Positions 32,488-58,695 of a stretch of DNA of 64,000 bases are shown piece by piece (the first letter of the stretch is position 1; every line of letters starts with the position of its first letter). Under the pieces are notes generated by a model, which made no database searches, had not been told where the DNA came from, and worked only from the letters and a program-made list of their open reading frames with translations. Position numbers and translations under genes: made by a program. This stretch comes from Microglena sp. YARC (lineage: Eukaryota > Chlorophyta > Chlorophyceae > Chlamydomonadales > Chlamydomonadaceae), in the NCBI GenBank assembly GCA_022414725.1, contig CM039462.1, positions 52,208,840-52,272,839 on the forward strand, written 5' to 3'.

Positions 32488-34384
32488 TTAAGGTGGTCGG
32501 AAGGGGCTTAAGGTGGTCGGGGAAGGGCTCAAGGTGGTCGGGGAGGGGCTTAAGGCAGCCAGCTCAGTTTCAACAACAGGATTGTGATTCCAGCGGGGTG
32601 AGTCCCCCGTGTTGGGAATGGGCATAAGAGAGGATGGGGTGGCCAGCACCACACCTAACGACGCACTCGTTGCAGACATCCCCCCCAAGGAGGGTGCTGC
32701 TCCTACCACTCCCCAGAGGTGCTGGTTGCTCCTGCCCCCCCAGAGGAGGGTGTTTGCTCCTACCACTCCCCAGAAGAGGGTGTTACTCCTGCACTCCCCA
32801 GAGGAGGGTGTTGCTCCTACCACTCCCCCAGAAGAGGGTGTTACTCCTGCCACTCCCCCAGAGGAGGGTGTTGCTCCTACCACTCCCAGAGGAGGGTTGC
32901 TCCTACCACTCCCCAGAAGGAGGGTGTTGCTCCTACCACTCCCCCAGAGGAGGGTGCTGCTCCTACCACTCCCCCAGAGGAGGGTGTTGCTCCTACCACT
33001 CCCCCAGAGGAGGGTGTTGCTCCTACCACTCCCCCAGAGGAGGGTGTTGCTCCTACCACTCCCCCAGAAGAGGGTGTTACTCCTGCCACTCCCCCAGAGG
33101 AGGGTGATGCTCCTACCACTCCCCCAGAGGAGGGTGTTGCTCTCTACCATCCCCAGAGGAGGGTCCCCACTCCCCAGAGGAGGGTGTTGCTCCTACCACT
33201 CCTAGAAGGAGGGTGTTGCTCTGCTACGACTTCCCCAGGGGAGGGTGTGCTTCCTACCACTCCCCCAGAGGAGGGTGTTGCTCCTACCACTCCCCAGAGA
33301 GGGTGTTGCTCCTACACTCCCCCAGAGGAGGGTGTTGCTCCTACCACTCCCCCAGAGGAGGGTGTTGCTCCTACGACTATCCCCAGAGGAGGGTGTTGCT
33401 GTCCTACACTCCCCCAGAGGAGGGTGTTGCTCCTACCACTCCCCGAGGAGGGTGCTGCTCCTACAACTCCCCACAGAGGAGGGTGCTGCTCCTACCACTC
33501 CCCCAGAGGAGGGTGTTGCTCCTACCACTCCCCAGAGGAGGGTGCTTGCTCCTACCACTCCCCCAGAGGAGGGTGCTGCTCCTACCACTCCCCCAGAGGA
33601 GGGTGTTGCTCCTACCACTCCCCCAGAGGAGGGTGCTGCTCCTACCACTCCCCCAGAGGAGGGTGCTGCTCCTACCACTCCCCCAGAGGAGGGTGCTGCT
33701 CCTACCACTCCCCCAGAGGAGGGTGCTGCTCCTACCACTCCCCCAGAGGAGGGTGCTGCTCCTACCACTCCCCCAGAGGAGGGTGTTGCTCCTACCACTC
33801 CCCCAGAGGAGGGTGCTGCTCCTACCACTCCCCCAGAGGAGGGTGCTGCTCCTACCACTCCCCCAGAGGAGGGTGTGCTCCTACCACTCCCCCAGAGGAG
33901 GGTGCTGCTCCTACTGCTCGCACTCCCCCAGAGGAGGGTGTTGCTCCTACCACTCCCCCAGAGGAGGGTGCTGCTCCTACACTCCAGAGGAGGGTGCTGC
34001 TCCTACCACTCCCCCACTCCCAGAGGAGGGTGCTGAGGAGGGTGCTCCTACCACTCCCCCCAGAGGAGGGTGCTGCTCCTACCACTCCCCCAGAGGAGGG
34101 TGCTGCTCCTACCACTCCCCCAGAGGAGGGAGGGTGCTGCTCCTACCACTCCCCCAGAGGAGGGTGCTGCTCCCTACCACTCCCCCAGAGGAGGGTGTTG
34201 CTCTACCACTCCCCCAGAGGGACAGGGGGGAGGGTGCTGCTCCTACACTCCCCAGAGGAGGGTGCTGCTCCTACCACTCCCAAGTGCTGCTCCTACCACT
34301 CCCACCAGGGAGGGTGCTGGCTCCTACCACTCCCCCAAGGGAGGGTGCTGCTCCTACCACTCCCCCAGGGAAGGGTGTTGCTCC
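32488..34384 (-). CDS. Putative C-terminal decapeptide-repeat region of the ThrE-like gene
   Basis: A 30-bp unit ('cagaggagggtgctgctcct' plus 'accactcccc') is repeated about 55 times from 32680 to 34400. Ten codons per unit keep frames open; the minus strand reads GVVGAAPSSG or GVVGATPSSG. This frame is continuous with the non-repetitive exon at 34385-35106, which supports minus-strand coding. At 32488-32610 it leaves the repeat as a Ser/Thr/Pro-rich tail. Units of 29 or 31 bp break the frame several times, so this is expression-incompetent DNA, an intron, or contains sequencing indels. Plus-strand frames up to 576 codons are also open but lack exon context. Confidence 0.4.
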
Positions 34385-34400
34385 TACCACACCCCCAGAG
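32680..34400. repeat. 30-bp minisatellite, about 55 copies
   Basis: The central block 33560-33870 is nearly perfect with period 30, differing only at one C/T site (gctgct versus gttgct). The flanks carry indels and truncated units. The array grows more irregular toward both ends, as expected if recent expansion is central. Confidence 0.97.
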
Positions 34401-35106
34401 GTTATCGTGTCTGCAACCATGCGGCCATATGTGTGGCCCTCCTCAGTAGACCTCCTCCTATCGTCCCAGCCCCCAGAAAATCCCACTTTATCGAACCCGC
34501 CCCCAGAAGATCTCCCTAAGGCTGCCATCGCCCCGAAAATAGAACCAACAATTCCCTTGCTGGACTTCTGGGCAATCCCTTCTTGGGAGGTCTTGGCAGA
34601 CGCCTCCTTAGGGTTACGGGCAACGTTTGAGTTACTGGCAGCGTTAGAGTTACTGGCAGCGTTTGAATTACTGGCAACGTTTGAGTTACTGGCAGCGTTA
34701 CAGTTACTGGCAGCGTTCGAGTTACTGGCAGCGTTACCGCTACCGGCAGCGTTAGTGTTACTAGCAACGTTAGAGTTACTGGCAGCGTTGGAGGTATGGG
34801 TCAGCTCATTGGACTTAGGCGCAAGCCCCCCAGCAGACAGCCTGGCAACGCCCTCGGAGTTGGTATGAGACAAGGGTACCTGTTCTGGTATCATCATTAG
34901 ACCAGGGGTGCCCAAGCCCGAGGAGGGGGGGGTCAAGGTGGCTTGTTGTGATAATGTCTGTGGTGACGATAGGCCCCCGGGAGGGAAATCACTAGGCAGG
35001 CGGCCACTCTCTCCAAGTTCTATCGCCACACCTGGATCATCTGGGCTCTTGCCACCACCGACACCGAAGAGACCTTGAAGTGCCCCAAGGCCGGCTGACC
35101 AACGGT
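34385..35106 (-). CDS. ThrE-like gene, exon 9 (Ser/Asn-rich tail)
   Basis: The acceptor is CCCCCCTATAG at 35117-35107, giving phase 1, which matches the phase-1 donor of exon 8. The translation starts with a Gly-rich patch (LGALQGLFGVGGGK), continues Pro/Ser-rich, and has an Asn-rich run of AASNSN-type hexapeptides (34617-34795). It then has a GIVGSIFGAMAALGRSSGGG segment before entering the GVVGA decapeptide repeats. It is probably a cytoplasmic tail; no domain is recognised. It is open for about 240 codons without a stop, in contrast to the surrounding DNA. Confidence 0.6.
34617..34795 (-). repeat. 18/24-bp coding repeat (AASNSN)
   Basis: About ten copies of 'ttactggcagcgtt.gag' in multiples of six bases, encoding Ala-Ala-Ser-Asn-Ser-Asn and variants in the exon 9 frame. 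Substitutions are mostly single-base and preserve the frame. Confidence 0.85.
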
Positions 35107-35132
35107 CTATAGGGGGGAATGGATATGGAAAT

Positions 35133-35135
<3 letters not shown>

Positions 35136-35184
<49 letters not shown>

Positions 35185-35237
35185 GGGGGGGGGATAGGGT
35201 TTAAGGTGAGTGAGTGTGTGTGTGTGTGGGGGGGGAC
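35136..35237. repeat. (GT)n microsatellites in intron 8
   Basis: About 22 GT units at 35136-35180, a G run, and a second shorter GT block before 35227. They lie just upstream of the exon 9 acceptor on the coding strand. Confidence 0.95.
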
Positions 35238-35399
35238 AGATAGGAAATGATAGGGATGTAGGTCTGCAATGGATATGGAGGATAGGGAAGTTCTGTTGGG
35301 ACAGATAGGGACAGATAGGAAATGATAGGGATGTAGGGCAGAAATTGATATGGAGGATAGGGAAGTAGGGCTGGAATAAATATTTAGGATAAGGAAACA

Positions 35400-35890: not shown

Positions 35891-35919
35891 ATGTAGGGCT
35901 GGAATGGAAATGTCAGATA

Positions 35920-37040: not shown

Positions 37041-37083
37041 TGTTGATGGGTGGGTGGATTAAATGAGAGAGAAAGGACCTTAC

Positions 37084-37464
37084 CTGACCCAAAGGCAAAC
37101 GGTGTTCTCTTGTTGTGGGAGTCATGAGCGGAGGACTGAGTTGAGTCCTTGCCACCCACTTCGCTTCTCTCAGCAAACCCGCCATCAAGTGCCTCCGAGG
37201 GCTTGACTGAAAAGTGTCGGTGCGAGGGAGACGGTGAATAGCTAACTCCTTGCATGCTGTTGCGCTGTTGTGAGTGGGAGTAGCCAGAACGTTGAGAGTC
37301 CTTCCTTGCCATGCCGACCTCGTGCGCCTTGAACGTGAATGTGGGGGGCATGTCCATGTAATGGTCCACGGAAGGCAGTGCGCCAGACAATTGCATCGAG
37401 TTGTATTGGGCCAGGTTGATGGGGCTGGCGTTGTACAGGGTGTTGGAGTCGTGTGAGGCTACAC
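37084..37464 (-). CDS. ThrE-like gene, exon 8 (cytoplasmic linker)
   Basis: The exon ends FAFGSG at a GTAAGG donor (37083), phase 1. It encodes a hydrophilic Ser/His-rich segment containing DHYMDMPPTFTFKAH, then SYSPSPSHRHFSVKPSEALDGGF, with no membrane segment, so it is probably on the cytoplasmic side after the last helix. The 5' border is uncertain: the frame stays open into the neighbouring array, and the likely AG near 37457 gives a phase that does not match the main exon 7 donor. A degraded copy of the 5' half of this exon is at 37570-37740. Confidence 0.65.
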
Positions 37465-38700
37465 CTAAGCAGTTGGTGCAGGGATTGGGGTTAGTGTAGA
37501 GGGTGGTGTAGGTGGCGGTGTAGGTCGCAGGTGGTTAATGTAGATGGTGGCGGTGTGTGATGTAGGTGTGTAGGTGGGGAGTCCTTCCTTGCCATGCCAA
37601 CATCTTGCGCCTTGAACGTGAAAGTGGGGGGCATGTCCATGTAATGTCCACGGAGGGCAGTGTGCCAGAGACAATTGCAATGAGTTGTATTGGGCCAGGT
37701 TGATGGGGCTGTTGGCGTGTACAAACCTAAGGGTGCAGGGATTGGGTTAGTGGAGTCGTGTGAGCGCTACACCTAAGCAGAGTCGGTGCAGGATTGGGTT
37801 GTTAGAGATGGGTAGGTGGCGGTGTATGTGTGGTTAGGTGGTGTAATGTAGGTGGTGTAGGTGGGTAGGTGTTGTGGTGTGGTATGTATGGATATCCTTC
37901 TCATCGGTTAACAGGCGTTGGGTGTTGTAGTGTGGTGTAGTGTGTGTAGGTGGTGGTAGTTGGGCAGTAGTCGGTGCAGGGGTTGGGAGTTAGTGTAGGT
38001 GGTTAGTTAGGTGTAGTGTAGTGTAGCCAGTAGTCGGCATGCACGGGTTGGGGTTAGTGTAGGTGGTGTAGGTGGTGGGTAGTGCAGAAGTGCAGTAGTC
38101 GGTGCCTGCAGGGGTTGGGGTTAGTGTACTGGTGGTGTAGGTGTGGTAGTGAGCAGTAGTCGGTGCAGGGGTTGGGGTTAGTGTAGGTGGTGTAGGTGGC
38201 TTGTAGTGCAGGGCATAGTCGGTGCAGGGGTTGGGTTAGTGTAGGTGGTGTAGTGTGGTAGTGTGGGCAGTAGGTCGGCCATGCAGGGGTTGGGGTTAGT
38301 GTAGGTGGTGTAGGTCCGGTGGTAGTGTGGCAGTAGTCGGTGCAGGGTTGGGGTTAGTGTAGGTGGTGTAGGTGGTGGTAGTGTAGGCAGTAGTCGGTGC
38401 AGGGGTTGGGGTTAGTGTAGGTGGTGTAGGTGGTGGTAGTGTGGGCAGTAGTCGGTGCAGGGGTTGGGGTTAGTGTAGGTGGTGTAGGTGGTGGTAGTGT
38501 AGGCAGTAGTCGGTGGGCGGGGTTGGGGTTAGTGTAGGTGGTGGGGTGTGTAGTGTGGGCGTGGTAGCAGTAGTCGTGCAGGGGTTGGGTAGTGTAGTTT
38601 TATCACGTTAGAGTGGTGTAGTGTAGGCAGTAGTCGGTGCAGGGTTGGGTTAGTGTAGGTGGTGTAGTGGTGTAGTGTAGCAGTAGTCGGTCACTAGTCA
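37465..38700. repeat. About 56-bp satellite in intron 7, including a degraded copy of exon 8
   Basis: The unit 'gtgcaggggttggggttagt' then 'gtaggtggtgtaggtggtgg' and 'tagtgtgggcagtagtcg' is repeated about 18 times. The first lines (37570-37740) contain a copy of exon 8 coding sequence (ccttccttgccatgcc, gtgaaagtggggggcatgtc) with frame breaks. The unit's 'tgcagggattggggttagtg' also occurs at the 5' edge of exon 8, so the array appears to have grown from that exon border. Confidence 0.85.
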
Positions 38701-40395: not shown

Positions 40396-40763
40396 CTTGC
40401 CGCCCACTCTGAACACCACCACCACCACCACTTCCACCAACACATATACCTCCACCAACACCACCACTCCCCAAATCCACCCACCCACACCCCCATGTGA
40501 CCTACCGGTTCAGGTCCAATACTACCACCACCACCACCACCAAGGCTCACCACCACCAATACTACCACCACCACCACCACACACACACACACACATGTGA
40601 CCTACCAGGTCCATCCTTCCTACATGGCCGCTTGTCGCCGCGCATCTTCATGTTTCAATTCAACAAGTGTGCAACATTGCTGCCCACTTTAAACACCACC
40701 ACCACTACCACATATACCTCCACCACCACCATCACCCCCCACACCAACCCGCATGTGACCTAC
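40396..40763 (-). repeat. Two extra copies of the exon 7 3' end and donor, with (CAC)n
   Basis: Between (CAC)n stretches, the coding strand contains 'ggacctg|gtaggtcacatg' at about 40600-40612, preceded by a 90-bp diverged copy of exon 7 coding sequence (AACATGAAGATGCGCGGCGA). A shorter copy reads 'ggacctgaaccg|gtaggtc' at about 40497-40517. Both repeat the exon-intron junction of exon 7. Confidence 0.8.
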
Positions 40764-40963
40764 CGGATCAGGTCCATCCTTCCTACAAGGCCTTTTGTCA
40801 CCGCGCATCTTCATATTTCGATTCAACAAGTGTGCAACATTGCCGCCCACTTTGAACACAACCAGCGCGCCCTTGAGTCCCATTACAATTGAAATGCCGA
40901 CCGTGAAGAAGGATGCCAAAAAGTTTGAAAAATTGTTGAGACTCGATACAGCTTCAGTCACGC
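40764..40963 (-). CDS. ThrE-like gene, exon 7 (last membrane helix)
   Basis: The acceptor is CCCGCAG|GCGTG and the donor is ATCCG|GTAGG. Its 200 nt take phase 1 to phase 0. It encodes TEAVSSLNNFSNFLASFFTV followed by GISIVMGLKGALVVF, a hydrophobic helix, and a basic tail (NRNMKMRGDKRPCRKD). In ThrE-type proteins this is the final helix after the LVPGS motif. The acceptor border is present three times and the donor border three times in neighbouring DNA. Confidence 0.75.
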
Positions 40964-41149: not shown

Positions 41150-41530
41150 GGAGGGGGGGGGGGGGGATGGGAGGGGGGGCGAGTTTTTAATTGTGTGCAC
41201 ATTTGTGAGACTAGATACAGCTTCAGTCATGCCTGCGGGTAGCATGGTGGGGGGGGGGGGGGGGGGGGGGGGGTAAGGTGGAATGGGTTGGGTTGAGTTT
41301 TTGATTGTGTGCAAATTTTTGAGACTAGATACAGCTTCAGTCATGCCTGCGGGTGGGGTGGGTGGGGTCGGTGGGGGTGGGTGGGGTAAGGTAGGGTGGG
41401 ATGAGGTGGGGTGGGGTGAGGGTAAGATGGGCGGTGGTGGGGTGGGGTGGGGTAAAGTGGTATGTGATAAGGAAGGGTGGGATGAGGTGGTGTGGGGTAA
41501 GGTGGGATGAGATGAAGTGGGGTAAGGTGG
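41150..41530 (-). repeat. Two extra copies of the exon 7 acceptor border
   Basis: On the coding strand, 'acccgcag|gcatgactgaagctgta' with the next 25-35 exon bases occurs at about 41205-41245 and 41316-41360, each behind a C-rich tract (C26 ending near 41247 for one). The copies diverge from exon 7 soon after codon 10 and then read 'cacacaattaaaaac', so they are border fragments and not full exons. Confidence 0.85.
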
Positions 41531-42839: not shown

Positions 42840-43053
42840 CATCACATGCGACATTAACAATTGGCGGAGTGTGTTGGCAACTGAATGAAAGGTGGCAACG
42901 GACTGGACCTGACCGAAGCCAGTTAGTTATGAGACAGTTGGCTGACATGCCAGGGTTCGATTTTCCGGGCAGGCGGTCAAACGGACACACAAACAGACAA
43001 CCAGGTGACCTTGGGGGCTCCCGCCCCCCAGAAGGGAGGGCTCTGCCAAAAAG
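42840..43053 (+). mobile_element. Dispersed SINE-like repeat, family 1, copy B
   Basis: This is the best preserved copy: 'attggcggagtgtgttggca', 'gaaaggtggcaacgg', 'gaccgaagccagttag', a B-box-like GGGTTCGATTTTCC at about 42954-42967, 'ccttgggggctcccgccccc' and an A-rich end. It sits in intron 6 antisense to the host gene, next to a copy of the exon 6 3' part. Confidence 0.7.
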
Positions 43054-43061
43054 CCTTGCTG

Positions 43062-43155
43062 AGGACGCGGCTCAAAAGCTGGTCGAGCCTGGAACCAGAA
43101 GGAAGAGCGTTGGAAAGAGAACAGACCACACGTCAGCATTGGAACCCATGAGCTT
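43062..43155 (-). pseudogene. Partial copy of exon 6 (3' half) of the ThrE-like gene
   Basis: The minus-strand frame repeats exon 6 coding sequence (LMGSNADVWSVLFPTLFLLV, then PGS) with about 10% base change, then reaches a stop where exon 6 has RAAF. It lies downstream of exon 6 on the coding strand, within intron 6, and is another case of 3'-border duplication. Confidence 0.85.
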
Positions 43156-43174
43156 CATGTGTGTACGTGTGTGT

Positions 43175-43337: not shown

Positions 43338-43608
43338 CGAAAGTTCCGTCCAATAGGGCCGAGAACGCAGCTCGGAAAATGGTTGAGCCTGGTACCAGGA
43401 GGTATAGAGCTGGAAAGAGAACAGACCAAACATCAGCATTGGCGCCCATAAGCAACATGGTGTTATTCCAAAGGAGGGAAAATCGACCTGTCTTGGGTCG
43501 TCGGCGGCGCATGACATCGACCAACACGTAGGCAGTGAGGGTGGCGGCAAAAGAGGGGCCGACATTGGAGATGACAGTGTTCTGTTTGGCAACCTGATCG
43601 ATCAGCAC
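43338..43608 (-). CDS. ThrE-like gene, exon 6 (LVPGS motif)
   Basis: The acceptor is CACCCACAG|GTGCTG and the donor TTTCG|GTGAGG; 271 nt, phase 0 to 1. It encodes QVAKQNTVISNVGPSFAATL, an AYVLVDVMRRRRPK helix end, and LMGANADVWSVLFPALYLLV followed by PGS. The LVPGS motif before the last helices is a hallmark of the second ThrE-type domain (ThrE_2, PF12821) in fungal and bacterial amino-acid exporters. It gives the strongest family evidence in this gene. Confidence 0.85.
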
Positions 43609-44639: not shown

Positions 44640-45404
44640 TGAGTGTGAGGCCACCATGCAATCTGTTGCATAATCAGTGTAGGTAGGGCAGCCCAGAAGT
44701 TCAAACATTTTTTAAATTTAACTTGAAATTTAAATTTTGAATTTAAATAAAAATGAAAAATCCATGTACCTGCGCCCACATGCAATCTGTTGCGCTATCA
44801 GTGTGGATAGGTAACCCTAGGGGTTGGACACTTTTCAAAACTGAAATTGAAATTCGAATTTGAAAAATTGATTTCAGTATGTCCACATACCTGCGTCCAC
44901 CATGCAATCTGTTACATAATCATCACCCAATGGGTTGGACAATTTCAGAACTAAATTTGAAATTTGAAATTTGAATTCAGTATGCCCACATGCCCTAGTT
45001 CACCATACAATATGTTCCATAATCAGTGTAGATGGGTAACCCAAGGGGTTTGACACTTTTCAAAACTGAAATTGAAATTCGAATTTAAAAATTTGAATTC
45101 AGTATGTCCACATGCCTGCGTCCACCATGCAATCTGTTGTGGAATCAGTGTGGAAGGGAAACCCAGACACTTCAGACACTTTTCAGCCGCTCAGACACTT
45201 TTCAACCGTGAATTTGAATTTAAATTTGATTACAATCCACGTACCCGTGTCCACCATGCAATCTGTTACGTAATCAGTGTAAAAGGGCAACCCAGGAGTT
45301 CAGACATTTCAAATTAAATTTTGAATTTAAATTCCGAATTTTGGATTTGAATCTGAAAACAATTCACGTACCTGCGTTCACCATGCAATCTGTTATGTAA
45401 TCAG
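44640..45404 (-). repeat. Seven extra copies of the exon 5 donor border
   Basis: The coding strand repeats 'acagattgcatggtgg' followed by a GTA-type donor context. The + strand motif 'ccatgcaatctgtt' or a close variant lies at about 44654, 44778, 44901, 45003, 45124, 45254 and 45382, spaced 102-130 bp, with AT-rich 'gaatttgaattt' filler between. The true exon border is at 46249. The copies contain 30-50 coding bases plus intron start. Confidence 0.9.
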
Positions 45405-46153
45405 TAGGGTTGGGAAGCAAACGTATATGTTTATTTGTATAAGCCGTATAAACGTATAAACGTATACATATAAACGTATAAAAACGTATAGGAAAATTAG
45501 GCACTTCTTGAGAAAATACTTTTACATGGTTTTAAAGGTATTGCTGCGTAGCTAAATTCATTGGCATCACATATCAACTCTCAGAAAAATAATCTGGCAA
45601 GTTTAGGTTGTCCAAATCTCAGAAAAGAAATAACGACCACAAAGCGCGGTGCCAATCTAAGGGAGCCATTAAATGCCAGTTGGTCTATTATAACTGTATG
45701 AGTGTATAATAATATAAGTACATAACGGTATTGCAATTTTTTCCATGTTCACATTGCACTAGGCTTGCACCATCAATCCCTCAAGCCCACGTAGAAGCAT
45801 AGCTTGTGGAATGGAAGGCTAGGTGGCGCTCAGATATGTGTGCCATCCTGGCTATCTAGATCAACCATTAGGCCAAATGTTTATAAAATAATGCGCGTGA
45901 ATGGTGATTTTTATTGCATATTGTGATAGAGGAGGTCAAAAGCTTTCCAATGAGCTATCTAAATCAGAAATATAATGAAAACCAAGAAAGTTAAGTGCCG
46001 GGACGTGTGCTGTACTTCTTGAAGTACAGACTAAAAGGTTTTGTATACGACGTATATAAGGTCGATTTGAGAAAAAATATACGGCATATTTATACGTATG
46101 ACCGTATAAACTTATATTATACGTTTATGTGTCGGCCCAACCCTAGTAATCAG
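45397..46153. mobile_element. hAT-type non-autonomous transposon with 8-bp TSD
   Basis: The element at 45405-46145 begins TAGGGTTGGG and ends CCCAACCCTA, the typical hAT terminal sequence. GTAATCAG is duplicated on both sides (45397-45404 and 46146-46153). Subterminal repeats of CGTATA/TATACG crowd both ends. The interior lacks a transposase ORF, so it must be moved in trans. The unoccupied site is visible in the neighbouring repeat copy ('tgttacgtaatcagtgtaaa' near 45262), proving insertion into an exon-5 border repeat. Confidence 0.9.
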
Positions 46154-46248: not shown

Positions 46249-46602
46249 CTGCGTCCACCATGCAATCTGTTGAGTAATAAGTGTAGGGAGCATCTGCCAG
46301 TGGCCAACCTTCAATTGCCCCTGGGCTGCGAAGGAGACGATAGGCAGTATGGTGACGTAGGCGATATTGGTCTCGGATGTAGCGAGGGTGCAGGACACAC
46401 CGGCGTTGATGTTATCCTCACCCATCCAAAAGTTGGACAGCCAGGTGCCCATAGCGGCCCCTAGGGCCAGCGAGTAGGTTTTAATAATGGCCATCCAGAA
46501 GCGGGTGACACCATTAATGGCCCAGCCGTCCAGCACCTCCATCATTCCAAGGACTAGGGGGGTGCCGTAGAAGAACCAGGTCAGTGTGCCCATCACAATA
46601 GC
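46249..46602 (-). CDS. ThrE-like gene, exon 5 (membrane core)
   Basis: The acceptor is ACCCGCAG|GCTATT and the donor GACGCAG|GTACGTG; 354 nt, phase 0 at both ends. It encodes several helices: AIVMGTLTWFFYGTPLVLGM, then MEVLDGWAINGVTRFWMAII, KTYSLALGAAMGTWL and NIAYVTILPIVSFAAQG. The 'pG..l..gi.El..g....G.sRl..a......L.lG...G' pattern matches the first-domain end of ThrE/DUF1212 proteins, where yeast Prm10 has ELxxR(N)xxxGxSRL. The protein probably moves small amino acids or related solutes across a membrane. Both borders of this exon are amplified nearby. Confidence 0.85.
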
Positions 46603-46709: not shown

Positions 46710-46742
<33 letters not shown>

Positions 46743-47048
46743 ACGCCATTGATAGCCCAGCCGTCCAGCACCTCCAACATGCCAAGGACTAAGGGGTGCC
46801 GTAGAAGAAGCAGGTCAGTGTGCCCATCACGATAGCCTGCGGGTTTAGGGTGTATGATTTAGTGTTCAATGCACGTGTTGAGTACAAGATCACATGTTTA
46901 TATTGGGCATGGGGGCTGCCGTAAAATAAGCAGGTCAGTGTGCCCATCACGATAGCCTGCGGGTTTAGGGTGTATGGTTTATGTCGTGGGATCAGGTTGT
47001 AGGGTTGTAGATTGGAAGTTATAGGAGGTTTCTTCGGTTGTGGTTGTG

Positions 47049-47091
<43 letters not shown>

Positions 47092-47380
47092 CGCCATTGA
47101 TAGCCCAGCCGTCCAGCACCTCCATCATTCCAAGGACTAGGGGGGTGCGGTAGAAGAAGCAGGTCAGTGTGCCCATCACGATAGCCTGCGGGTTTAGGGT
47201 GTATGATTTAGTGTTCAATGCATGTGTTGATTACACGATCACATGTTTTAATGTTTATATAGGACTAGGGGGTGCTGTAGAAGAAGCAGGGCAGTGTGAT
47301 CATTACCATAGCCTGCGCATGATTGAGTACGAGATCACATGTTTGGACTAGCGTAGATTGGGAGTAAGAGGAGGCATCTT
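46620..47380 (-). repeat. Four extra copies of the exon 5 acceptor border with (GT)n
   Basis: 'aacccgcag|gctatcgtgatgg' with about 50 following exon bases (through CFFYGTP) recurs at about 46795-46845, 46920-46965, 47153-47192 and, diverged, 47265-47320. Blocks matching the middle of exon 5 (LGMMEVLDGWAING) recur at 46744-46795 and 47090-47155. GT microsatellites (46697-46741, 47057-47090) separate them. Confidence 0.9.
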
Positions 47381-47389
47381 CGGAGTGGT

Positions 47390-48640
47390 TGTGGGATTGT
47401 GAGGTTGGGATTGTTTGTTGGGATTGTGAGGTTGGCAGCAGTTGTTGGGATTGATTGTTGGCAGCAGTTGTTGGGATTGTGAGGTTGGGATTGTGAGGTT
47501 GGGATTGTGAGGTTGGGATTGTGAGGTTGGGATTGTGAGGTTGGGATTGTTTGTTGGCAGCAGAGGCTTTTGTCAGTCCGGCTTGCGGTTTCGCCCACAA
47601 CGCCCACCAGGGACCCTGGCACAAAAACCTCTGCCCCCATGCAATATAAAATAAAAATAAACAAACACAAATAAATTGCAGTGTCACCTCATGCATTACC
47701 ACCTGAGAGCAGAGGGTTGTGTCAGTCCGGCTTGCGTTTTGCCCACATCCTCCACTAGGGATACTGGCACAATTGAAATACAAATTAATATAATAAACAA
47801 TGGCAGTGTCAACCCATGCATAAAAACGAAAATAAATTGCAGTGTCGCCCCACCTGGGAGCAGAGGGTTGGGTTGTGTCACCCCACCTGGGAGCAGAAGG
47901 TTGTGTCAGTCCGGCGTGCGGTTTCGCCTACGACGCCCACCAGGAAGGCTGCCACGACACCCTCTGTCCCAAGCAATATAACAAATATGCAGCGTCACCC
48001 CGCCTTTGAGCAGAGGCTTTGTCATTCCAGTGTGCGGTTTCGCCCACGACGCCCACCAGGAAGGCTGCAACGACACCCTCTGTCCCAAGCAATATAAAAA
48101 GTATGCAGCGTCACCCCACCTTTGAGCAGAGGCTTTTGTCATTCCTGCCACGACACCCTCTGCCCCAGGCAATGTAAAATAAAAGTGCTCTTGATCAGTT
48201 CTAAGTTACCTTCAATGCGGTTTCACCCACGACACCCTCTATCCCAGGCAATATAAAATAAAAGTAAACAAATAAAATAAATTGCAGTGTCACCCCACCG
48301 GCGAGCAGAGGGTCCTGTCGGTCCGGCGTGCGGTTTCACCTACGACCCATACCCAGAAGGCTGCCACGACACCCTCTGCCCCAGGCAATGTAAAATAAAA
48401 GTGCTCTTGATCAGTTCTAAGTTACCTTCAATGCGGTTTCACCCACGACACCCTCTGTCCCAGGCAATGTAAAATAAAAGGAAACAAATAAAATAAATTG
48501 CAGTGAGTGTCACTCTACCGGCGAGCAGAGGGTTGTGTCAGTCTGGCGTGCAGTTTCACCCACGACCCATACCCAGAAGGCTGCCACGACGGCCTCTGTC
48601 CCAGGCAATATAAATAAAAGCAAACAAATTAAGCAAATTG
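47390..48640 (-). repeat. About eight copies of the exon 4 3' border
   Basis: The coding strand repeats 'gtgggcgt.gtgggcgaaac', 'cgcacgccggactgacaa' and 'ctctgctcgc' derived from exon 4 (VGVVGETARRTDKTLCS) at about 47560-47630, 47700-47765, 47885-47960, 48000-48080, 48120-48165, 48300-48380 and 48530-48605, with the exon itself at 48665. Filler is 'tttattttatattgcctggg'-like. At the left edge (47395-47560) the array decays to 'gggattgtgaggtt' decamers. Confidence 0.9.
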
Positions 48641-48664: not shown

Positions 48665-48894
48665 CTGCGAGCAGAGGGTCTTGTCAGTCCGACGTGCGGT
48701 TTCGCCCACAACGCCCACCAGGAAGGCTGCCACAAAATCGTCCGTCCCATGCAAACTGAAAAATTTGGCGTCCACGACAATGACCACAGAAGCCAGTAGG
48801 GCGCACACTACAGCCCACCCAGCCTCTGCGATTTCTCCCTTGTAGAAAGTCATGGCTGTGGAGAAGGAGAGCAGCACAAGCAGGAGAACACGAC
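48665..48894 (-). CDS. ThrE-like gene, exon 4 (two to three helices)
   Basis: The acceptor is ACATACAG|GTCGTG and the donor CTCGCAG|GTAGTA; 230 nt, phase 1 to 0. Joined to exon 3 the Gly codon at the junction is completed (G|GT). It encodes RVLLLVLLSFSTAMTFY, AGWAVVCALLASVVIVVD, then FVAAFLVGVVGET, three hydrophobic stretches. This matches the first helices of ThrE domains, which follow a conserved Pro-Trp. The 3' border is amplified about eightfold. Confidence 0.85.
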
Positions 48895-49029: not shown

Positions 49030-49095
49030 AGTACAAGCAGGACGAGCAGCACGAGAAGGAGAGCAGCACAAGCAGTAGGACACGACCTGTATGAC
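49030..49095 (-). repeat. Extra copy of the exon 4 acceptor border
   Basis: 'catacag|gtcgtgtcctactgctt' and 'gtgctgctctccttctc' on the coding strand duplicate the first 40 bases of exon 4 about 190 bp upstream of it, separated by 'atgtgctcataaatagg' repeats. Confidence 0.8.
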
Positions 49096-49099
49096 ATTC

Positions 49100-49264
49100 A
49101 AAACGATCAAATGCTCAAAGATCAGCCATCCTCGGCCAAGTTAAATTAGAAGTTAGAATGTCGAAAGAAGCCATTTTGAAAACAGCTATGAATAGCTACA
49201 ACAGGAGACTGGCCACATATGACATGCGAACACGCATGCACGCTTGCACAGGTAGCAGTAGTGG
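49100..49264. other. Intron 3 sequence without recognisable feature
   Basis: No repeat or coding motif seen. It joins the exon 4 border copy to the exon 3 border array. Confidence 0.4.
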
Positions 49265-49960
49265 AGAGAGGCTTACCCAGGAGAGAACAATGGAAGGCAT
49301 TTTCCCACGAGGCCAAGCCGGTAATTTACTGACAAAAACACATAGAACACACTGGAACACATATGAAATACACTAAAGCACGCACGCACGCACGCACATA
49401 CGCATGCACAGGTAGCAGTCGTGGAGAGAGAGGCTTACCCAGAAAAGAACAATGAAAGACATTTCCCCACAAGGCCAAGCGTGTGCCGGTAACTTACTGA
49501 TAACGTACATATATGAAATACACACATGCACGCTCGCTCTCACGCAAGCACACACGCACGCAAGCACACACGCACACACGCACGCACAGGTAGCACTAGC
49601 GGAGAGAAAGGCTTACCCAGGAATGTACGATTGAAGAACTTATCAGACGATGTCGAGCGTGCGCTGGTAACTTACTGATAAAATACGCATAGTACACATG
49701 TGAAAAACACGCACGCACGCACACACACACACACGCATGCATGCACAGGTAGCAGTAGTGGAGAGAGAGCTTACCCAAGAGTGTGCAATGGAAGAAATAT
49801 TCCCACGAGGCCAAGTGTGCGACGGTGAATTACTGACAACAAAACAAATAGGACACATATGAAATACACGCACGCACATACGCACGCACGCATGCACACA
49901 CAGGTAGCAGTCGTGGAGAGAGAGGCTTACCCAGGAGAGTACAATGGACGAATTTTATTT
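49265..49960 (-). repeat. Five extra copies of the exon 3 donor border, about 165-bp spacing
   Basis: On the coding strand the end of exon 3 (TGGGA.AAATTCTTCCATTG then CACTCTCCTGG) followed by GTAAGC recurs at about 49270-49322, 49434-49486, 49612-49666, 49770-49824 and 49929-49960. The spacers carry 'ctctctccacgactgctacc' and CGTGCGTG-type microsatellite. These copies have the stronger donor GTAAG, whereas the exon at 52815 has GTATG. Confidence 0.92.
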
Positions 49961-50019
49961 TAGGGTGATTCACACTTCCATTTACCCTCTCATACTCTGG
50001 GCTGGGCTGGGCTGGGGAA

Positions 50020-50100
50020 GTTGGGTTGGGTTGGGTTGGGTTGGGTTGGGTTGGGTTGGGTTGGGTTGGGTTGGGTTGGGTTTGGGTTGGGTTGGGTTAA
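50020..50100. repeat. (TTGGG)n array in intron 3
   Basis: About 15 TTGGG units with one interruption. It matches the block at 41017-41110. Confidence 0.97.
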
Positions 50101-50400
50101 GGGGGGTAAATACTTATTGCACCAGGTCCAAAGTGGTGCCAATAGACTACCCTTCCCAAGGCCTACTCAGAAATGGTCTCGGAATGACATTTGGAGGTCT
50201 GAGTAAAAAGGTAGCAAAAAGGTGGCAAAAACAAAATGAGGGCTCAGACACACACACACACACACACCCCTAAATGATGTGCTCAGAATGACCTGAAAAG
50301 TGACTTTTAATATCGCCTAAATACATGCCATTACAACCCCACTGTCAGAAAAAATCGATCGGCGTGACTGAAACATTTGAAGCCTGGGCTACTCCTGATT
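50101..50400. other. Intron 3 spacer
   Basis: No feature beyond a short (CA)n at 50249-50269. Confidence 0.4.
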
Positions 50401-50499
50401 AAACAAACATTTAAATACACAGAAACACACACACCAATACACATTACATACACATAAAACATGCATTAAACACACACATATACACACATCGATACACAT

Positions 50500-50750
50500 T
50501 AAATACACATAAAACATGCACATAGAACACGCACATAGAACATGCACATAGAACATGCACATAGAACATGCACATAGAACATGCACATAGAACATGCACA
50601 TAGAACATGCACATAGAACATGCACATAGAACATGCACATAGAACATGCACATAGAACATGCACATAGAACATGCACATAGAACATGCACATAGAACATG
50701 CACATAGAACATGCACATAGAACACGCACATAAAACACGCATAAAACATT
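50500..50750. repeat. 13-bp tandem repeat in intron 3
   Basis: About 18 copies of AACATGCACATAG, nearly perfect. Minus-strand ORFs reading CACSMCMFYVHVL are repeat frames. Confidence 0.97.
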
Positions 50751-50872
50751 AACAGGAGAGTAAATACACAGGAAATACACAGAAATACACCTTCAATCGG
50801 CTTCAATACACAAAAAATATACATAAGTACACCTTCAATACACAGAAACATACACATAAAAGATGCATCAAA

Positions 50873-50940
50873 CATACCCAGGAGAGTACAATGGAAGAAC
50901 TTTTCCCACGGGGTCAAGCGTGCGCCGGTGACCACATCGT
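50873..50940 (-). repeat. Long extra copy of the exon 3 3' end and donor
   Basis: About 65 bp repeating the last 20 codons of exon 3 (VVTGARLTPWEKFFHCTLL) then GG|GTATG. It is closer in sequence to the real exon end than the five shorter copies are, and has the same GTATG donor. Confidence 0.9.
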
Positions 50941-50979
50941 TTGTCTAGGACACATAAATACACACAAACTACACTTCGA

Positions 50980-51673: not shown

Positions 51674-52612
51674 CGGGGGGCCCTCAGGAAGTTGCTTGTG
51701 TACTGCATGCCGGAATCGGGGCCGGAAGGGGTCGTAAGCCCCAGAACCATCGAAAAAAGTCGAAAAATGTGTCGGGGTAAGGTAGATATCGACCCCTCAA
51801 AAAGAGGGGGGGGGGGGGGGGGGTCCGTCGGCTTTCAGAAATTTACTCTGGTGAAGACTGTTAGAGGCCAAAACTTCCTCAGTACTCGGTCTCTGCTAAA
51901 ATTAAGCAGACCTATGACACAAGCTCGGCGAGATCTTTCCGAATCCACCCTTATTTCCGACACCGAGTAAATATGGAGGCGTGATCCTCTAGATCCTGTC
52001 TAGATCCAAGTCGAGGCACCTGCCAGGCTGGCTCGTTCATGGGTCGAGCCGGTTACGGAAATATCTTCGTAACTTCCTCACCAGACGGAATCTGACAAAG
52101 TTAAGCATACCCACGAAACTGGTTCGACGAGAGCATTCCGACTCTGCGAATGTTTTCGAGAATGAGTTAATGTGTCGTGGTAGTGCTTGAGTAGTGACCT
52201 CCACAGGTTCTAAGTACACCAAGTGTGAAGGTTGGGTCAAACCAGAAACTCAATCTTTCCTCCCCAAACTTCTTGGGTATAAGGAGGGTACTTGGGCATG
52301 CGACTTAGGCTTAACACCACCTTCAAATTCTCAAACACCAACACTAGCTAGCTCAGCTCAGAATCAGGACTAGGACAGGGTGTTTGCTTGAACATGTTGT
52401 CAACTTTGATCAAATCCAAATATAAGACCACAAATGGATAGAGCTCGTCAAGGAGATCACTATAGAGCCTACTTTGACCCCCTAATTATAATTGTTGAAG
52501 GAGATATGGGCCTTTGGGGGGGGGGGGGGGGGGGGGGGGGGGTAAGGCTGATTACAAAAACTTCCGGCATAGGTATATGAAAAAAACTTCCTCAGGGCCC
52601 CCTGCATAAAAT
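51666..52612. mobile_element. hAT-like non-autonomous element (931 bp) inside the 33-bp array
   Basis: The element at 51674-52604 has inverted ends. The right end on the minus strand reads CAGGGGGCCCTGAGGAAGTT; the left end differs at a few positions (CGGGGGGCCCTCAGGAAGTT), with further pairing around 'atgccggaa'. CATAAAAT lies on both sides (51666-51673 and 52605-52612), as an 8-bp TSD would, though this octamer also belongs to the array unit. Poly-G tracts lie at 51806-51825 and 52517-52542. No transposase ORF is seen. Confidence 0.7.
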
Positions 52613-52814: not shown

Positions 52815-53060
52815 CCAGGAGAGTGCAGTGGAAAAACTTCTCCCACGGGGTCAAGCGTGCACCAGTGACGACATCATTCATCTCTGTAAAGGCCTGGTCA
52901 ATGCTCATGTTGCCTTCTAGGAGGGACCACTTGATACGAGTGAGTTCTCCAATGGACTTTGCATTATAGGATCCAGAGGAGGGTGTGGCCCAGGTAAAGC
53001 GGCCGCCGAATAGGTTGTGGTCAATACGGTTGATTGCGAAGCTCAGTTCCAAGTCTTGTT
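52815..53060 (-). CDS. ThrE-like gene, exon 3
   Basis: The acceptor is CCCCAACTACAG|AACAAG and the donor TCCTGG|GTATG; 246 nt, phase 1 at both ends. It encodes ELSFAINRIDHNLFGGRFTW, then ELTRIKWSLLEGNMSIDQAF and a TEMNDVVTGARLTPWEKFF segment. The 'L..L.....G.lS.deA...l..i......PW' layout matches the cytoplasmic linker that precedes the first helix in ThrE domains. The first 95 bases are present twice more upstream and the last 45-65 bases six more times downstream. Confidence 0.85.
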
Positions 53061-53092
53061 CTGTAGTTGGGGGGGGGAGAGTTAGTGTGTAG

Positions 53093-53340
53093 GATCCAGA
53101 GGAGGGTGTGGCCCAGGTAAAGTGGCCGCCGAATAGGTTGTGGTCAATGCTGTTGATTGCGAAGCTCAGTTCCAAGTCTTGTTCTATAGGGGGAGGTAGG
53201 GGGGGGGGGGGGGGTAGGAGGCGTAGGAGGGGGTGACCCAGGTGAAGAGGCCGCCGAATAGGTTGTGGTCAATACGGTTAATCGCTAAGCTCAGTCCCAA
53301 GTCGTGTTCTATAGGGGGGGGGGGGGGGGGGGGGGGGCAC
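53093..53340 (-). repeat. Two extra copies of the exon 3 acceptor border
   Basis: Coding-strand copies start at 53183 and 53308, each directly behind a C-rich tract plus TATAG (C24 for the second, 53314-53337). Each contains about 95 bp of exon 3 coding sequence (DLELSFAINRIDHNLFGG) through the TPS.GSY or TPSYASY codons, then turns into C-rich DNA without a clear donor. The third unit in the series is exon 3 itself. Confidence 0.92.
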
Positions 53341-53344
53341 TCAC

Positions 53345-53675
53345 CCAATCCCCACAGGCGAATGAGTCGCGCACATGCACCCTTAAGCATGTACAATGGC
53401 ATCACCGCATTGTGTGCGATGTCTGTAAGCCGCACAACCACTAGCACCCGCTTTGTAAACTCGTCCACAGTTGACTCGGCGTCGTGGCCGTTGAAGAACA
53501 TGCCAGGCAGCTCATGTTGGTTGGTTAAGTGGTTCCTAGCTGCCTCACGGACCCTCTTTTCCACCCGCGTCCAGAAAGCTACATCACCACTCCCGGCCTC
53601 GACTTGTGTGAAGAGCTCGACCACCTTGTTGGTTTCGTTGAAATATCCGCGTGCAAAGTGGGAAACCCAGGGGTC
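53345..53675 (-). CDS. ThrE-like gene, exon 2
   Basis: The acceptor is CCCCCTCAG|GACCCC and the donor GATTGG|GTGAGT; 331 nt, phase 0 to 1. It encodes DPWVSHFARGYFNETNKVVE, then a Trp/Arg-rich helix and FTKRVLVVVRLTDIAHNAVM followed by PLYMLKGACARLIRLWGLG. The last part corresponds to the 'L..la..L...GA...r.E..l......LG' opening of ThrE domains, though it is divergent. The first 60 bases occur again upstream (53770-53835). Confidence 0.75.
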
Positions 53676-54000
53676 CTGAGGGGGGTGAGTGGTGGGTGGG
53701 TGGTGAGTGGGTGGGTGGTGGGTGGGTGCATGGGTTGGTAGGTGGAGAGGTGAAGGGGTGGGTGGAGAGCTTTACCACCTTGTTGGTTTGGTTGATATGT
53801 CCGCGCGCAAAGTGGGACACCCAGGGGTCCTGAGGGGGGCGAGTGGTAGGTGGGTGTGTGGGTTGAGAGTTGAAGGGGTGGGTGGGTTCGTGGGTGCAGG
53901 GTGGGTGGGTGGAGAGGTGAATGGGTGGGTGGTTGGGTGGGTGCAGGGGTGGGCGGGTGAAGAGGTGAAGGGGTAGGTGGGTGAAGGAGTTGGTGGGTTG
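53676..54000 (-). repeat. Extra copy of the exon 2 acceptor border within GGTGGGTG repeats
   Basis: 'cccccctcag|gacccctggg' plus 50 exon bases (VSHFARGHINQTNKVVKL) recurs at about 53770-53837, embedded in 'ggtgggtgggtg' DNA, which is CACCCACC-rich on the coding strand and can serve as a pyrimidine tract. Confidence 0.88.
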
Positions 54001-55650
54001 TGCATGTCTGCAACATGCATGCATGGATACTTACACTCACAAAATAATCTGAACACACAAACTACAGACGTATGCATGCATGTATGCTTTCAAGCAACAT
54101 AGTATACTGAACACACACATGCACACGCTAAACCTACTGACGTATGCATGTATGAGTAGATAGCTACATGCATGGATGATTTCAACATATTATATTTAAC
54201 ACATCCACTCACATGCACAAACCTACTGACGTATGCATGCGTTCAAGTGCACCTACATGCATGGATGCTTTCAACGTAGTATACTTAACACACACACACA
54301 CACAAAGTGAGTAACGGTATTACACGGATGTAACAATTTCAATTTCAATTTCAATAACACACACGCACACAAAAGCAAAAATGTATGTATGCATGCATGC
54401 ATGGATAGCTACATGCATGGATGCTTTCAACGTAGTACACTTAACACACACACGCACACAAGAACATAAATGTATGCATGCATGGGTAGCTACGTGCATA
54501 GATGCTTTCAACGTAGTATACTTAACACTCACACGCACACAAAAGCAAAAATGTATGTATACATGCATGGATAGCTACATGCATGGATGCTTTCAACCTA
54601 GTACACTTAACACACACACGCACACAAGAACATAAATGTATGCATGCATGGGTAGCTACGTGAATGGATGATTTCAGAATATATACTGAAAACATACACG
54701 TGCTCACACAAACCTACTGACGTATACATGCATGCATGCATGGATAGCTACATGCATGGATGCTTTTAACATATTACACTGAACACCTACGCGCACATGC
54801 AAAAACCTACTGACGTATGCATGCATGCAAGTGCACCTACATGCATGGGTGATGTTAACGTAGTATACGTAACACACACACACACACACACAAGAACACA
54901 AATGTATGCATGCATGCAAGAGCACCTACATGCATGGATGCTTTCAACATAGTATACTGAACACATGCACGCACACGCATACGCACAAACCTACTGACGT
55001 ATGCATGCATGTATGCCTATATAGCTACATGCATAAATGCTTTCAATGTAGTATGCTTAAAACACGCACGCACACAAGAACATAAACGTATGAATGCATG
55101 CATGCAAAGATGGCGCCATGCATCGATGCTTTCATCATATTATTCTGAGCACAAACGCACACATGCACACAAATGTATGCACGCATGCAAGGATATGTAC
55201 ATGCGTGGATGCTAACACTGGCAAAAGAATATGAACACACACAATCACGCACCTACTGCATATGCATACAAGGATGGATGCTTTCAACCATCTTGCATAA
55301 AACAAGCACAGTCACTTAACATGATTTCTGCATGCATGTCAGGGCTCCTACATGCATGCATACTTCCAACCACCTTCAGCTGTACTGAAAAAATAATATG
55401 AACCCGCATACACTCACAAACCTACTGGCTTAGGCATGCACGCAAGGATAGTTACATGCATGGGTCCGTCCACTCACTAAATAATATGAACCCTCACACA
55501 CTCATAAACCTACTGGTGTATGCATGCACGCAAGGATAGTTACATGCATGGGTGCGTCCACTCACACAATCATCTGAACACACACACGCACACACACTTA
55601 CAAACCTATACTGGTATATGCATGCACGCAAGCATAGTTACATGCATGCG
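54001..55650. repeat. Degenerate 75-100-bp CA/TGCATG-rich repeats in intron 1
   Basis: Blocks of 'gtatgcatgcatgcaag', 'tagctacatgcatggatgct', 'ttcaacgtagta.acttaac' and (CA)n recur about 18 times with considerable divergence. This is the older edge of the satellite that becomes regular after 55655. Confidence 0.85.
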
Positions 55651-55654
55651 AGCT

Positions 55655-57095
55655 TAACTCACAAAATAATATGAACACACACACATTAGCAACCCTTTCA
55701 TGGCGCATGCATGCATGCAAGTATAGCAATGTGCATGGGTGCTTAACTCACAAAATAATATGAACACACACACATTAGCATCCCTTTCATGGCGTATGCA
55801 TGCATGCAAGTATAGCAATGTGCATGGGTGCTTAACTCACAAAATAATATGAACACACACACACATTAGCATCCCTTTCATGGCGTATGCATGCATGCAA
55901 GTATAGCAATGTGCATGGGTGCTTAACTCACAAAATAATATGAACACACACACATTAGCAACCCTTTCATGGCGTATGCATGCATGCAAGTATAGCAATG
56001 TGCATGGGTGCTTAACTCACAAAATAATATGAACACACACACACATTAGCAACCCTTTCATGGCGTATGCATGCATGCAAGTATAGCAATGTGCATGGGT
56101 GCTTAACTCACAAAATAATATGAACACACACACATTAGCAACCCTTTCATGGCGTATGCATGCATGCAAGTATAGCAATGTGCATGGGTGCTTAACTCAC
56201 AAAATAATATGAACACACACACATTAGCAACCCTTTCATGGCGTATGCATGCATGCAAGTATAGCAATGTGCATGGGTGCTTAACTCACAAAATAATATG
56301 AACACACACACATTAGCAACCCTTTCATGGCGTATGCATGCATGCAAGTATAGCAATGTGCATGGGTGCTTAACTCACAAAATAATATGAACACACACAC
56401 ATTAGCAACCCTTTCATGGCGTATGCATGCATGCAAGTATAGCAATGTGCATGGGTGCTTAACTCACAAAATAATATGAACACACACACATTAGCAACCC
56501 TTTCATGGCGTATGCATGCATGCAAGTATAGCAATGTGCATGGGTGCTTAACTCACAAAATAATATGAACACACACACACATTAGCAACCCTTTCATGGC
56601 GTATGCATGCATGCAAGTATAGCAATGTGCATGGGTGCTTAACTCACAAAATAATATGAACACACACACATTAGCAACCCTTTCATGGCGTATGCATGCA
56701 TGCAAGTATAGCAATGTGCATGGGTGCTTAACTCACAAAATAATATGAACACACACACATTAGCAACCCTTTCATGGCGTATGCATGCATGCAAGTATAG
56801 CAATGTGCATGGGTGCTTAACTCACAAAATAATATGAACACACACACATTAGCAACCCTTTCATGGCGTATGCATGCATGCAAGTATAGCAATGTGCATG
56901 GGTGCTTAACTCACAAAATAATATGAACACACACATTAGCATCCCTTTCATATCGTATGCATGCATGCAAGTATAGCAATGTGCATGGGTGCTTAACTCA
57001 CAAAATAATATGAACACACACACATTAGCAACCCTTTCATGGCGTATGCATGCATGCAAGTATAGCAATGTGCATGGGTGCTTAACTCACATAAT
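55655..57095. repeat. 89-91-bp satellite in intron 1, about 16 near-identical copies
   Basis: The unit contains 'gcttaactcacaaaataata', 'tgaacacacacacattagca', 'accctttcatggcgtatgca' and 'tgcatgcaagtatagcaatg'. Length changes come from CA-repeat slippage, giving 89 or 91 bp. Sequence identity is very high in 55900-56900. Confidence 0.97.
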
Positions 57096-58190
57096 CATCT
57101 GAACACAGACACGCACATTCACACTTGAAAACCTATACTGGCGTATGCATGCATGCAAGTATAGTCATATGCATGGGTGCTTCACTCACAAAAGGATATA
57201 AACACTCGAACACTTACAAACCTTCATTGGTGTATGCATGCATGCAAGTATAGCAATATGCATGGGTGCTTAATTCACAAAATAATATGAACACACACAC
57301 ACATTAGCCCTCATACACTCACAAACTTATACTGGTGGATGCATGCATGCAATGATAGTTATATGCATGGGTGCTTAACTCACAAAATACTCTGAACCCT
57401 CATACACTCACAAACTTATACTGGTGGATGCATGCATGCAATGATAGTTATATGCATGGGTGCTTACGATCACAAAAGAATATAAATACTCGAACACTCA
57501 CAAACTTATACTGGTGGATGCATGCATGCAATCATAGTTATATGCATGGGTGCTTAACTCACAAAATACTCTGAACTCTCATACACTCACAAACTTATAC
57601 TGGTGGATGCATGCATGCAATGATAGTTATATGCATGGGTGCTTACGATCACAAAAGGATACAAACACTCGAACACTTACAAACCTTCACTGGTGTATGC
57701 ATGCATGCAAGGATAGTTATATTCATGGGTGCTTAACTCACAAAATCATCTGAACACACACACACTTACCAACCTATACTGGCGTATGAATACGCACAAT
57801 GATAGTTACATGCATGGGTACTTCCACTCTCATAATAATTTGAACCCTCGAACGCTCACAAACCTACAGCTGTATGCATGCATGCAAGGATAGTCATATG
57901 CATGGGTGCTTAACTCACATAATCATCTGAACACAGACACGCACATACACACTTACAAACATATACTGGTGTATGCATGCACGCAAGGATAGTTATATGC
58001 ATGGGTGCTTAACTCACAAAATAATCTGAACCCGCATACACTCACAAACCTACTAGTGTGCGCATGCATGCAAGGATAATTACAAGCATGGGTGCTTCCA
58101 CTCACAAAATCATCTGAACACACACATACACTTACAAACCTATACTGGTGTATGCATGCATGCCAGGATAGCTATATGCATGGATGCTTC
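57096..58190. repeat. Diverged continuation of the intron 1 satellite
   Basis: The same unit layout with altered middle blocks ('acaaacttatactggtggat', 'cactcgaacact'). Divergence rises toward exon 1. Confidence 0.9.
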
Positions 58191-58425
58191 CACCCATATC
58201 ATCTTAAACGCTAAAGGGCATATTCGGCTGGACACACTTGCAAGCAGACAAACACGCGCACACACCTCCACCCACACCTCCACCCATGCATACTCCCACC
58301 CATGCATACCCCCACCCCTCCACTACCACCACCCACCCACCTCCACCCACCCCATTACCCACAACCGAGCTCTACCTCTCCCATTATAATGTATAACCCG
58401 TTTGCTTAGTATCAGCACCACGTAC
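58191..58425 (-). other. Start of intron 1, C/CACC-rich on the + strand
   Basis: The stretch 58255-58370 is 'cacctccacccac'-like. The putative donor GTACGTG begins at 58425. In frame, the codons after the donor run to a stop at 58384, so the intron must be removed or the ORF ends early. Confidence 0.5.
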
Positions 58426-58695
58426 ATGACGAAAAGCGCGACGTGCCAGGGCCTTAGACCATTGGTCATGGGTTTTATTGGAGTTGGTGCCATTCATATT
58501 GCCATCGCCATCGCCATTGAAAGGTGTATGGCTATGCCCATTGGCTTCGTCAACGTTGGGGTCATCCAGGTCCGGGGCCGAGCGAGCGCGCTTAGATGCT
58601 ACTCCATTTTCCATTTTCTCGCCTCTCAGTTGCGCAAGAGGGATTGTGTTATGCAGATGGTTAGGCGCCGTAAGGCGTGTAGAAGCATGTAACAA
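58426..58695 (-). CDS. ThrE-like gene, exon 1 (N-terminal tail)
   Basis: The ATG at 58695 opens a 90-codon segment ending AFRH at a GTCAT|GTACGTG donor, phase 0, the phase needed by exon 2. A second in-frame Met (MENGVAS) lies 27 codons in and could be the true start, as the frame remains open upstream of 58695. The product is hydrophilic and Asn/Asp/Gly-rich (DPNVDEANGHSHTPF, GDGDGNMNGTNSN), like the disordered N-termini of fungal Prm10-type proteins. Assignment to this gene rests on phase, strand and position, not on homology. Confidence 0.55.

Follow-up and report, generated by a model that had tools for sequence, protein, structure and literature searches.

In the Microglena genes examined here, a single simple process, the repeated local copying of short stretches of DNA, accounts for most of the intron length. 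The principal case is a ThrE-like gene in a window of 64,000 nucleotides (nt), the whole stretch of DNA analysed, which comes from a 568-Mb genome of 2390 contigs. The exon-intron borders of this gene are multiplied, as a preliminary description of the sequence had proposed and as is confirmed below. Indiscriminate local tandem duplication is probably what drives intron length in this alga, and it would carry exon edges along wherever a duplicated stretch happens to overlap a border.

Multiplied exon-intron borders in the ThrE gene

Exon borders were set by splice signals and reading frame, which gives a gene of nine exons on the minus strand (58614-34271) with all eight introns (8/8) of the GT-AG type and with phases that yield a single open frame. 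The predicted protein matches the Pfam family ThrE (PF06738) with an E value of 5.2e-12 and 46.2 bits against a curated cut-off of 26.3, in agreement with the ThrE-like gene of nine exons recognized at the outset. Both strands of the whole window were searched for matches to each exon with 150 base pairs (bp) on either side, and each border was also searched with a two-pass profile. The exons and borders returned copies with E values from 1.3e-6 to 6.7e-80, which are diverged, partial and local; every copy in the exon-against-window search lies on the coding strand and in the adjoining intron. This search found one copy each for the acceptors of exons 2, 4 and 8 and for the 3' part of exon 6, two each for the acceptors of exons 3 and 7 and the donor of exon 7, and four for the acceptor of exon 5. 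It also recovered donor copies of exons 3, 4 and 5, for which the profiles counted six, about eight (some partial) and seven, respectively. A junction-spanning copy is present within 4 kb at 10 of the 16 borders and within 1.5 kb at nine of them; with simple repeats masked, the number is 8-10 of 16. No copy of exon 1 (with its 150-bp margins) was found on either strand of the window, and the matches of the exon 9 acceptor profile elsewhere in the window were rejected as TG/CA runs.

The preliminary description had reported multiplied edges in seven of the nine exons, which is the number found here, and its copy numbers are off by no more than one or two; the donors that it gave as sevenfold, about eightfold and eightfold agree with our counts once the true border is included. 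Its range of 20-95 coding bases per copy has to be replaced by a measured exonic part of 17-169 nt. The doubling that it described for the 3' part of exon 6 is there, but the copy does not reach the junction; this copy adjoins an unrelated repeat (42859-43052) that has relatives at 23612-23775 and 59968-60142. Finally, the placement of copies only on the intron side of their own exon is accurate, all of them being in the neighbouring intron, but it follows from geometry, because no more than one copy can be continuous with the remaining exon.

Table 1. Exons, intron 1 and border copies of the ThrE gene in the window
Feature	Position	Strand	Details
Exon 1	58426..58614	-	splice signals and frame; without border copies
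Intron 1	53676..58425	-	96% of interior points in local tandem duplicates; copy at acceptor border only
Exon 2 acceptor copy	53759..53932	-	71 exon nt; E 1.8e-43
Exon 2	53345..53675	-	splice signals and frame
Exon 3 acceptor, two tandem copies	53090..53335	-	84-94 exon nt; period ~123; occupy most of intron 2
Exon 3	52815..53060	-	splice signals and frame
Exon 3 donor, six diverged copies	49222..50941	-	at 50941.., 49996.., 49830.., 49678.., 49500.., 49322..
Exon 4 acceptor copy	49053..49119	-	34 exon nt; E 5e-18
Exon 4	48665..48894	-	splice signals and frame
Exon 4 donor-end array, about eight copies, some partial	47552..48608	-	window search and profile
Exon 5 acceptor, four copies	46740..47401	-	46-98 exon nt
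Exon 5	46249..46602	-	splice signals and frame
Exon 5 donor, seven copies	44647..45409	-	window search and profile
Exon 6	43338..43608	-	splice signals and frame; 271 nt
Exon 6 3' part copy	43058..43164	-	exon positions 146-251 of 271; without junction
Exon 7 acceptor, two copies	41206..41451	-	window search
Exon 7	40760..40963	-	donor picked by phase; adjoining GT possible
Exon 7 donor, two copies	40397..40701	-	window search and profile
Exon 8 5' part copy	37579..37866	-	169 exon nt; E 6.9e-62
Exon 8	37084..37464	-	splice signals and frame
Exon 9	34271..35106	-	3' end uncertain, runs into 30-bp minisatellite

Border copies in other genes of the genome

The preliminary description had made the generality of the pattern depend on whether other genes show border copies, and in two further families they do. 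A profile search of the genome with PF00118 gave 64 matches, 52 of which fall into 11 clusters with at least three exon matches each and were taken as chaperonin-family genes; the remaining 12 comprise two intronless frames, single matches, matches on small contigs and a spread-out C2 group. Eight of the 11 genes have local partial copies that overlap the cores of their exons. For kinesins, ten of the top 13 rows were taken (rows 1, 8 and 12 left out), a choice that was not blind, the table having hinted at neighbouring partial matches for some rows. Seven of these ten exons have a copied edge, the 5' edge in seven and the 3' edge in four with an alignment extending past the core. In all counted alignments the copies of acceptors are upstream of the exon and those of donors downstream, as geometry demands (36 and 20, respectively, in the modelled set of introns described below; 23 and 13 in the kinesins).

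Two chaperonin matches are single open frames of 544 and 704 amino acids (C6:13962293-13963762 and C5:11283081-11284901), and the other members of the family are intron-rich.

Intron length and duplicated DNA

The modelled set consists of 28 introns of ten genes with 56 borders, namely the eight ThrE introns and 20 of the 41 gaps between matched chaperonin exons; the gaps that were dropped had no continuous profile match, open frame or good pair of splice sites. Local duplicates make up 30,263 of the 45,721 bp in these introns (66%). Intron length follows the number of duplicated bp closely (r=0.93, Spearman 0.87), and the unduplicated remainder, with a median of 470 bp, shows no correlation with intron length (rho 0.18, p=0.36). 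The duplicated fraction is 0.57 between chaperonin exons versus 0.18 in the flanks and is higher inside than outside in 11 of 11 genes, G7 and G11 being low throughout; the introns of the ThrE gene, away from its exons, are 0.80 duplicated versus 0.15 for the rest of the window.

The local duplicates form minisatellite-like arrays, with same-strand copies of a repeating unit arranged head to tail. The units that span borders have a median length of 178 bp (5th to 75th percentile, 108-221). A unit of nucleosome size was considered on this basis and rejected: the arrays in introns and flanks have broad periods, and the requirement that a unit span a border favours long units, a possible sampling bias. 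The length of the border units may still reflect biology.

Duplications and exon borders

The preliminary description favoured a general process anchored at borders. The general part stands, duplication being present in many genes and going with long introns; the anchoring is not supported. Under that idea a process started at splice borders, for example template switching linked to R-loops or pausing, would add new units at the exon edge and push older ones inward. Arrays do occur at many borders, and in some of them the similarity to the border unit drops with distance (L059: 0.96 to 0.83). Yet copies with at least 15 nt on both sides of the junction were found at 24 of the 56 borders (9 donors and 15 acceptors), against 28.4 expected if borders were hit as often as points drawn at random within the same intron (95% range 23-34). 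Margins of 20 and 30 nt gave 23 observed versus 27.6 expected and 21 versus 26.0, respectively. The coverage of introns by duplicates has no peak at the border, with values of 0.43 within 50 bp, 0.43-0.47 within 200 bp and 0.84 beyond 1200 bp, and inside exons it declines smoothly from 0.38 to 0.10 over 100 nt. Generous single linkage connects 15,529 of the duplicated intron bp to exon edges and leaves 14,734 (49%) unlinked. Adjacent-unit identity was highest beside the exon in one of six usable arrays, a small sample out of 11 tried, and the exon-side breakpoints, 22 once two cases with long offsets are set aside, are consistent with uniform placement (Kolmogorov-Smirnov p=0.056). Growth from the intron edges is improbable on these figures.

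Splice sites and coding constraint in the copies

A second alternative is that selection retains the border copies for use as alternative splice sites or as alternative halves of exons. The preliminary description had suggested that they might supply alternative splice sites and had claimed that every copy keeps its splice-site dinucleotide. In MAFFT alignment columns this claim is borne out for acceptors (11/11 copies) and fails for donors (17/22). In pairwise alignments, 7 of the 34 copies do not align at the junction, and of the 27 that do, 26 keep the dinucleotide. This ratio of 26 to 27 looked striking, but special retention of splice sites was rejected, the dinucleotide being unexceptional among neighbouring columns: its retention is matched in 8 of the 59 other column pairs for donors and in 7 of the 53 for acceptors.

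The pooled codon statistics also seemed to speak for selected copies. Pairwise differences fall 66/53/169 over codon positions 1/2/3, a count that mixes shared with copy-specific changes and counts shared ones again for each copy, and the pooled synonymous fraction is 0.51 versus 0.24-0.29 expected. We split the changes at the six ThrE borders that have at least two copies (27 copies; the exon 7 donor and single-copy borders left out). Among the changes common to all copies relative to the exon, 15 of 16 are at codon position 3, and the columns that vary among copies are distributed 40/34/48 over the three positions (third-position excess p=0.086). The excess therefore lies with the shared changes, and coding constraint on the copies was rejected as its explanation. 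Indels in the copies are out of frame in 14 of 15 cases (seven of the 15 being within the exon 8 copy), and none of 13 internal exons has a whole-exon copy with both splice sites. On this codon pattern the exon has been under purifying selection and its copies drift; since variation is almost even over codon positions in the copies and the exon is constrained, the copies look like dead relics. A role for them as alternative splice sites or exon halves is accordingly not favoured by these data, and we consider it a distinctly poor prospect, although a copy may be used occasionally.

Very little probability goes to an assembly artefact, in which collapsed or mis-joined long reads would have created false tandem copies. 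By eye, the arrays at 32.7-34.4 and 37.9-38.7 kb are noisy with scattered indels; against this, the copies are ~67-97% identical with many substitutions, they are spread over many genes and several large contigs, and distinct inserted elements interrupt two intron arrays of the window. A mobile element or introner-like unit inserted at splice sites is the least credible source, in spite of the elements with inverted ends in introns 3 and 5, given that each border has its own unit built from its own exon edge and that the search of the window found exon-edge copies in the adjacent intron only, with no exon-bearing unit at another border of the window.

A model of intron growth by local tandem duplication

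Indiscriminate tandem duplication would act as follows. A stretch of DNA, at borders mostly ~110-220 bp long, would be copied head to tail, and the resulting arrays would then expand and decay. Selection would remove duplications within exons, and duplications inside introns or across one border would be tolerated, the latter because one intact exon edge and splice site stays joined to the remaining exon. Such an overlap would leave a half-exon relic in the intron, consisting of one splice site and part of the exon. Many of the tolerated duplications would overlap a border because the introns were formerly only a few hundred bp long; a short ancestral intron is what we infer for these genes. 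When tandem duplication was simulated simply, as a blind process with exons under selection and starting introns of 200-470 bp, 36-62% of borders came to lie in arrays, and the observed value is 43%. The molecular step is presumably replication slippage, template switching or unequal exchange. At one junction of the exon 5 copies (a single case, seen by eye), exonic GTCAC is joined to a CA run, as expected of microhomology. The relics would be ignored in splicing because, under exon definition, a splice site that has no partner an exon's length away would go unused, and each relic lacks such a partner.

Several observations weigh against duplication of so indiscriminate a kind, or against the data brought in for it. 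Edge copies are absent in three of the 11 chaperonin genes (G7, G8 and G11) and in three of the 10 kinesin exons, and a search for AAA proteins with 20 matches gave no neighbouring partial matches in the match table, the flanks lying outside that table. The modelled set covers only 20 of the 41 chaperonin gaps, and the dropped gaps include heavily duplicated cases. The random-point expectation is partly circular, with the intron parts of border arrays counting as interior, and the component analysis of duplicated intron bp answers this circularity only roughly. Exon-heavy units are somewhat scarce. The pooled third-position excess is larger than expected for drifting copies alone, with shared changes counted repeatedly. 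The higher level of duplication in gene bodies than in flanks is unexplained by pure indiscriminateness. In the other direction, six arbitrary 3-kb stretches have duplicated fractions of 0.07, 0.13, 0.92, 0.51, 0.00 and 0.91, which argues against specificity for introns.

A bolder version, which we consider unlikely though worth stating, would tie the duplication to gene bodies through transcription or replication conflicts, with a unit near the size of a nucleosome or Okazaki fragment, lengthening introns genome-wide, so that the half-exon relics would date the growth.

Other features of the window and the identity of the organism

Two elements lie in introns of the ThrE gene. The AT-rich element at 45406-46144 has inverted ends AGGGTTGGG/CCCAACCCT and a flanking repeat GTAATCAGT with one extra A on the right; we take it to be MULE-like, and it is younger than the exon 5 donor array, because it is inserted into that array. 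The other element (~51674-52602) has imperfect inverted ends (GGGGGCCCTCAGGAAGTT-like) and flanking CATAAAAT, and is located within a 33-bp minisatellite of intron 3. The exon 9 region contains a 30-bp minisatellite of ~57 copies (32682-34401) and an 18-bp coding repeat of ~10 copies (34608-34793); both may be further products of such duplication, at a place where the coding sequence can bear it. Outside the gene, an array at 22593-23208 has a period of ~140-160 bp and a unit that by eye includes acceptor- and donor-like sequence, and it may represent relics of another gene's exon edges. The remains of a Copia-like retroelement occupy 3105-9261 on the minus strand (RVT_2, gag_pre-integrs and a weak rve), and a separate RVT_1 fragment is found at 1485-1949. 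Scans of the window for tRNAs and for Rfam families at the gathering threshold gave no matches. The PF06738 profile search of the genome returned no match at E 0.001, missing the ThrE gene's own exons as well, and is uninformative on paralogues.

In a BLASTP comparison, the predicted EukProt protein gene9200-16339_t is 75% identical to the ThrE protein over 80%, with long identical stretches by eye, and probably comes from the same organism. Among the best 120 of 5956 EukProt matches to a CCT-alpha query of this genome there is one 99% identical entry, and Sanguina, Astrephomene, Chlamydomonas and Haematococcus follow at 78-79%. The CCT-alpha matches most likely place the organism among the volvocalean green algae.

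Significance and comparison with known systems

The causes of long introns are poorly known beyond mobile elements. The exon-edge relics are built-in clocks, each copy being a fossil that drifts while the exon it came from is under constraint, and they would make it possible to measure how fast and in what way introns grow. The same copies are ready decoy splice sites for studying the choice of the true site, and they are a warning to gene predictors, which may pick them wrongly.

Long introns are common to the same broad green-algal group, including volvocine algae (PMC8226300), Limnomonas (PMC11228838) and the snow alga CCCryo 101-99 (PMC11247165); for the volvocine introns, the driving mechanism was left open by Craig et al., 2021, and the passages considered from the three papers make no mention of duplicated exon edges, or of tandem duplication, as the cause. 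In the open-licence literature searched, no title or abstract reports that copied exon edges are a common feature of any genome.

Related duplications have been described in other eukaryotes. In potato, a single tandem duplication across an intron-exon border created a new spliced intron and a piece of exon (PMC4974935, 2016, which cites the model of Rogers, 1989). As in Microglena, the duplication spans the acceptor border and carries an intron tail and an exon head; the algal copies, in contrast, stay in one intron, reach up to ~8 repeats, decay, and are found in many genes. Two cases of introns gained from 24-nt tandem repeats are known from fission yeasts (PMC3629103), where tandem units beside exon edges likewise change intron structure, but there small repeats give new introns, whereas existing introns lengthen in Microglena. 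Direct repeats at intron-exon borders were also reported by Rogers and Bendich, 2025 (PMC11782384), who interpreted 4-30-bp repeats found at both ends of an intron as insertion scars; the tandem units of Microglena are ~100-200 bp long and stand at one border. The leucine-rich repeat genes of Tetrahymena, with their arrays of 90-bp exons (PMC6564038), share with the present genes the tandem repetition of exon and intron sequence within a gene. In the ciliate, whole exons are repeated in one family and kept as exons, whereas in Microglena half exons are found in the introns of unrelated genes.

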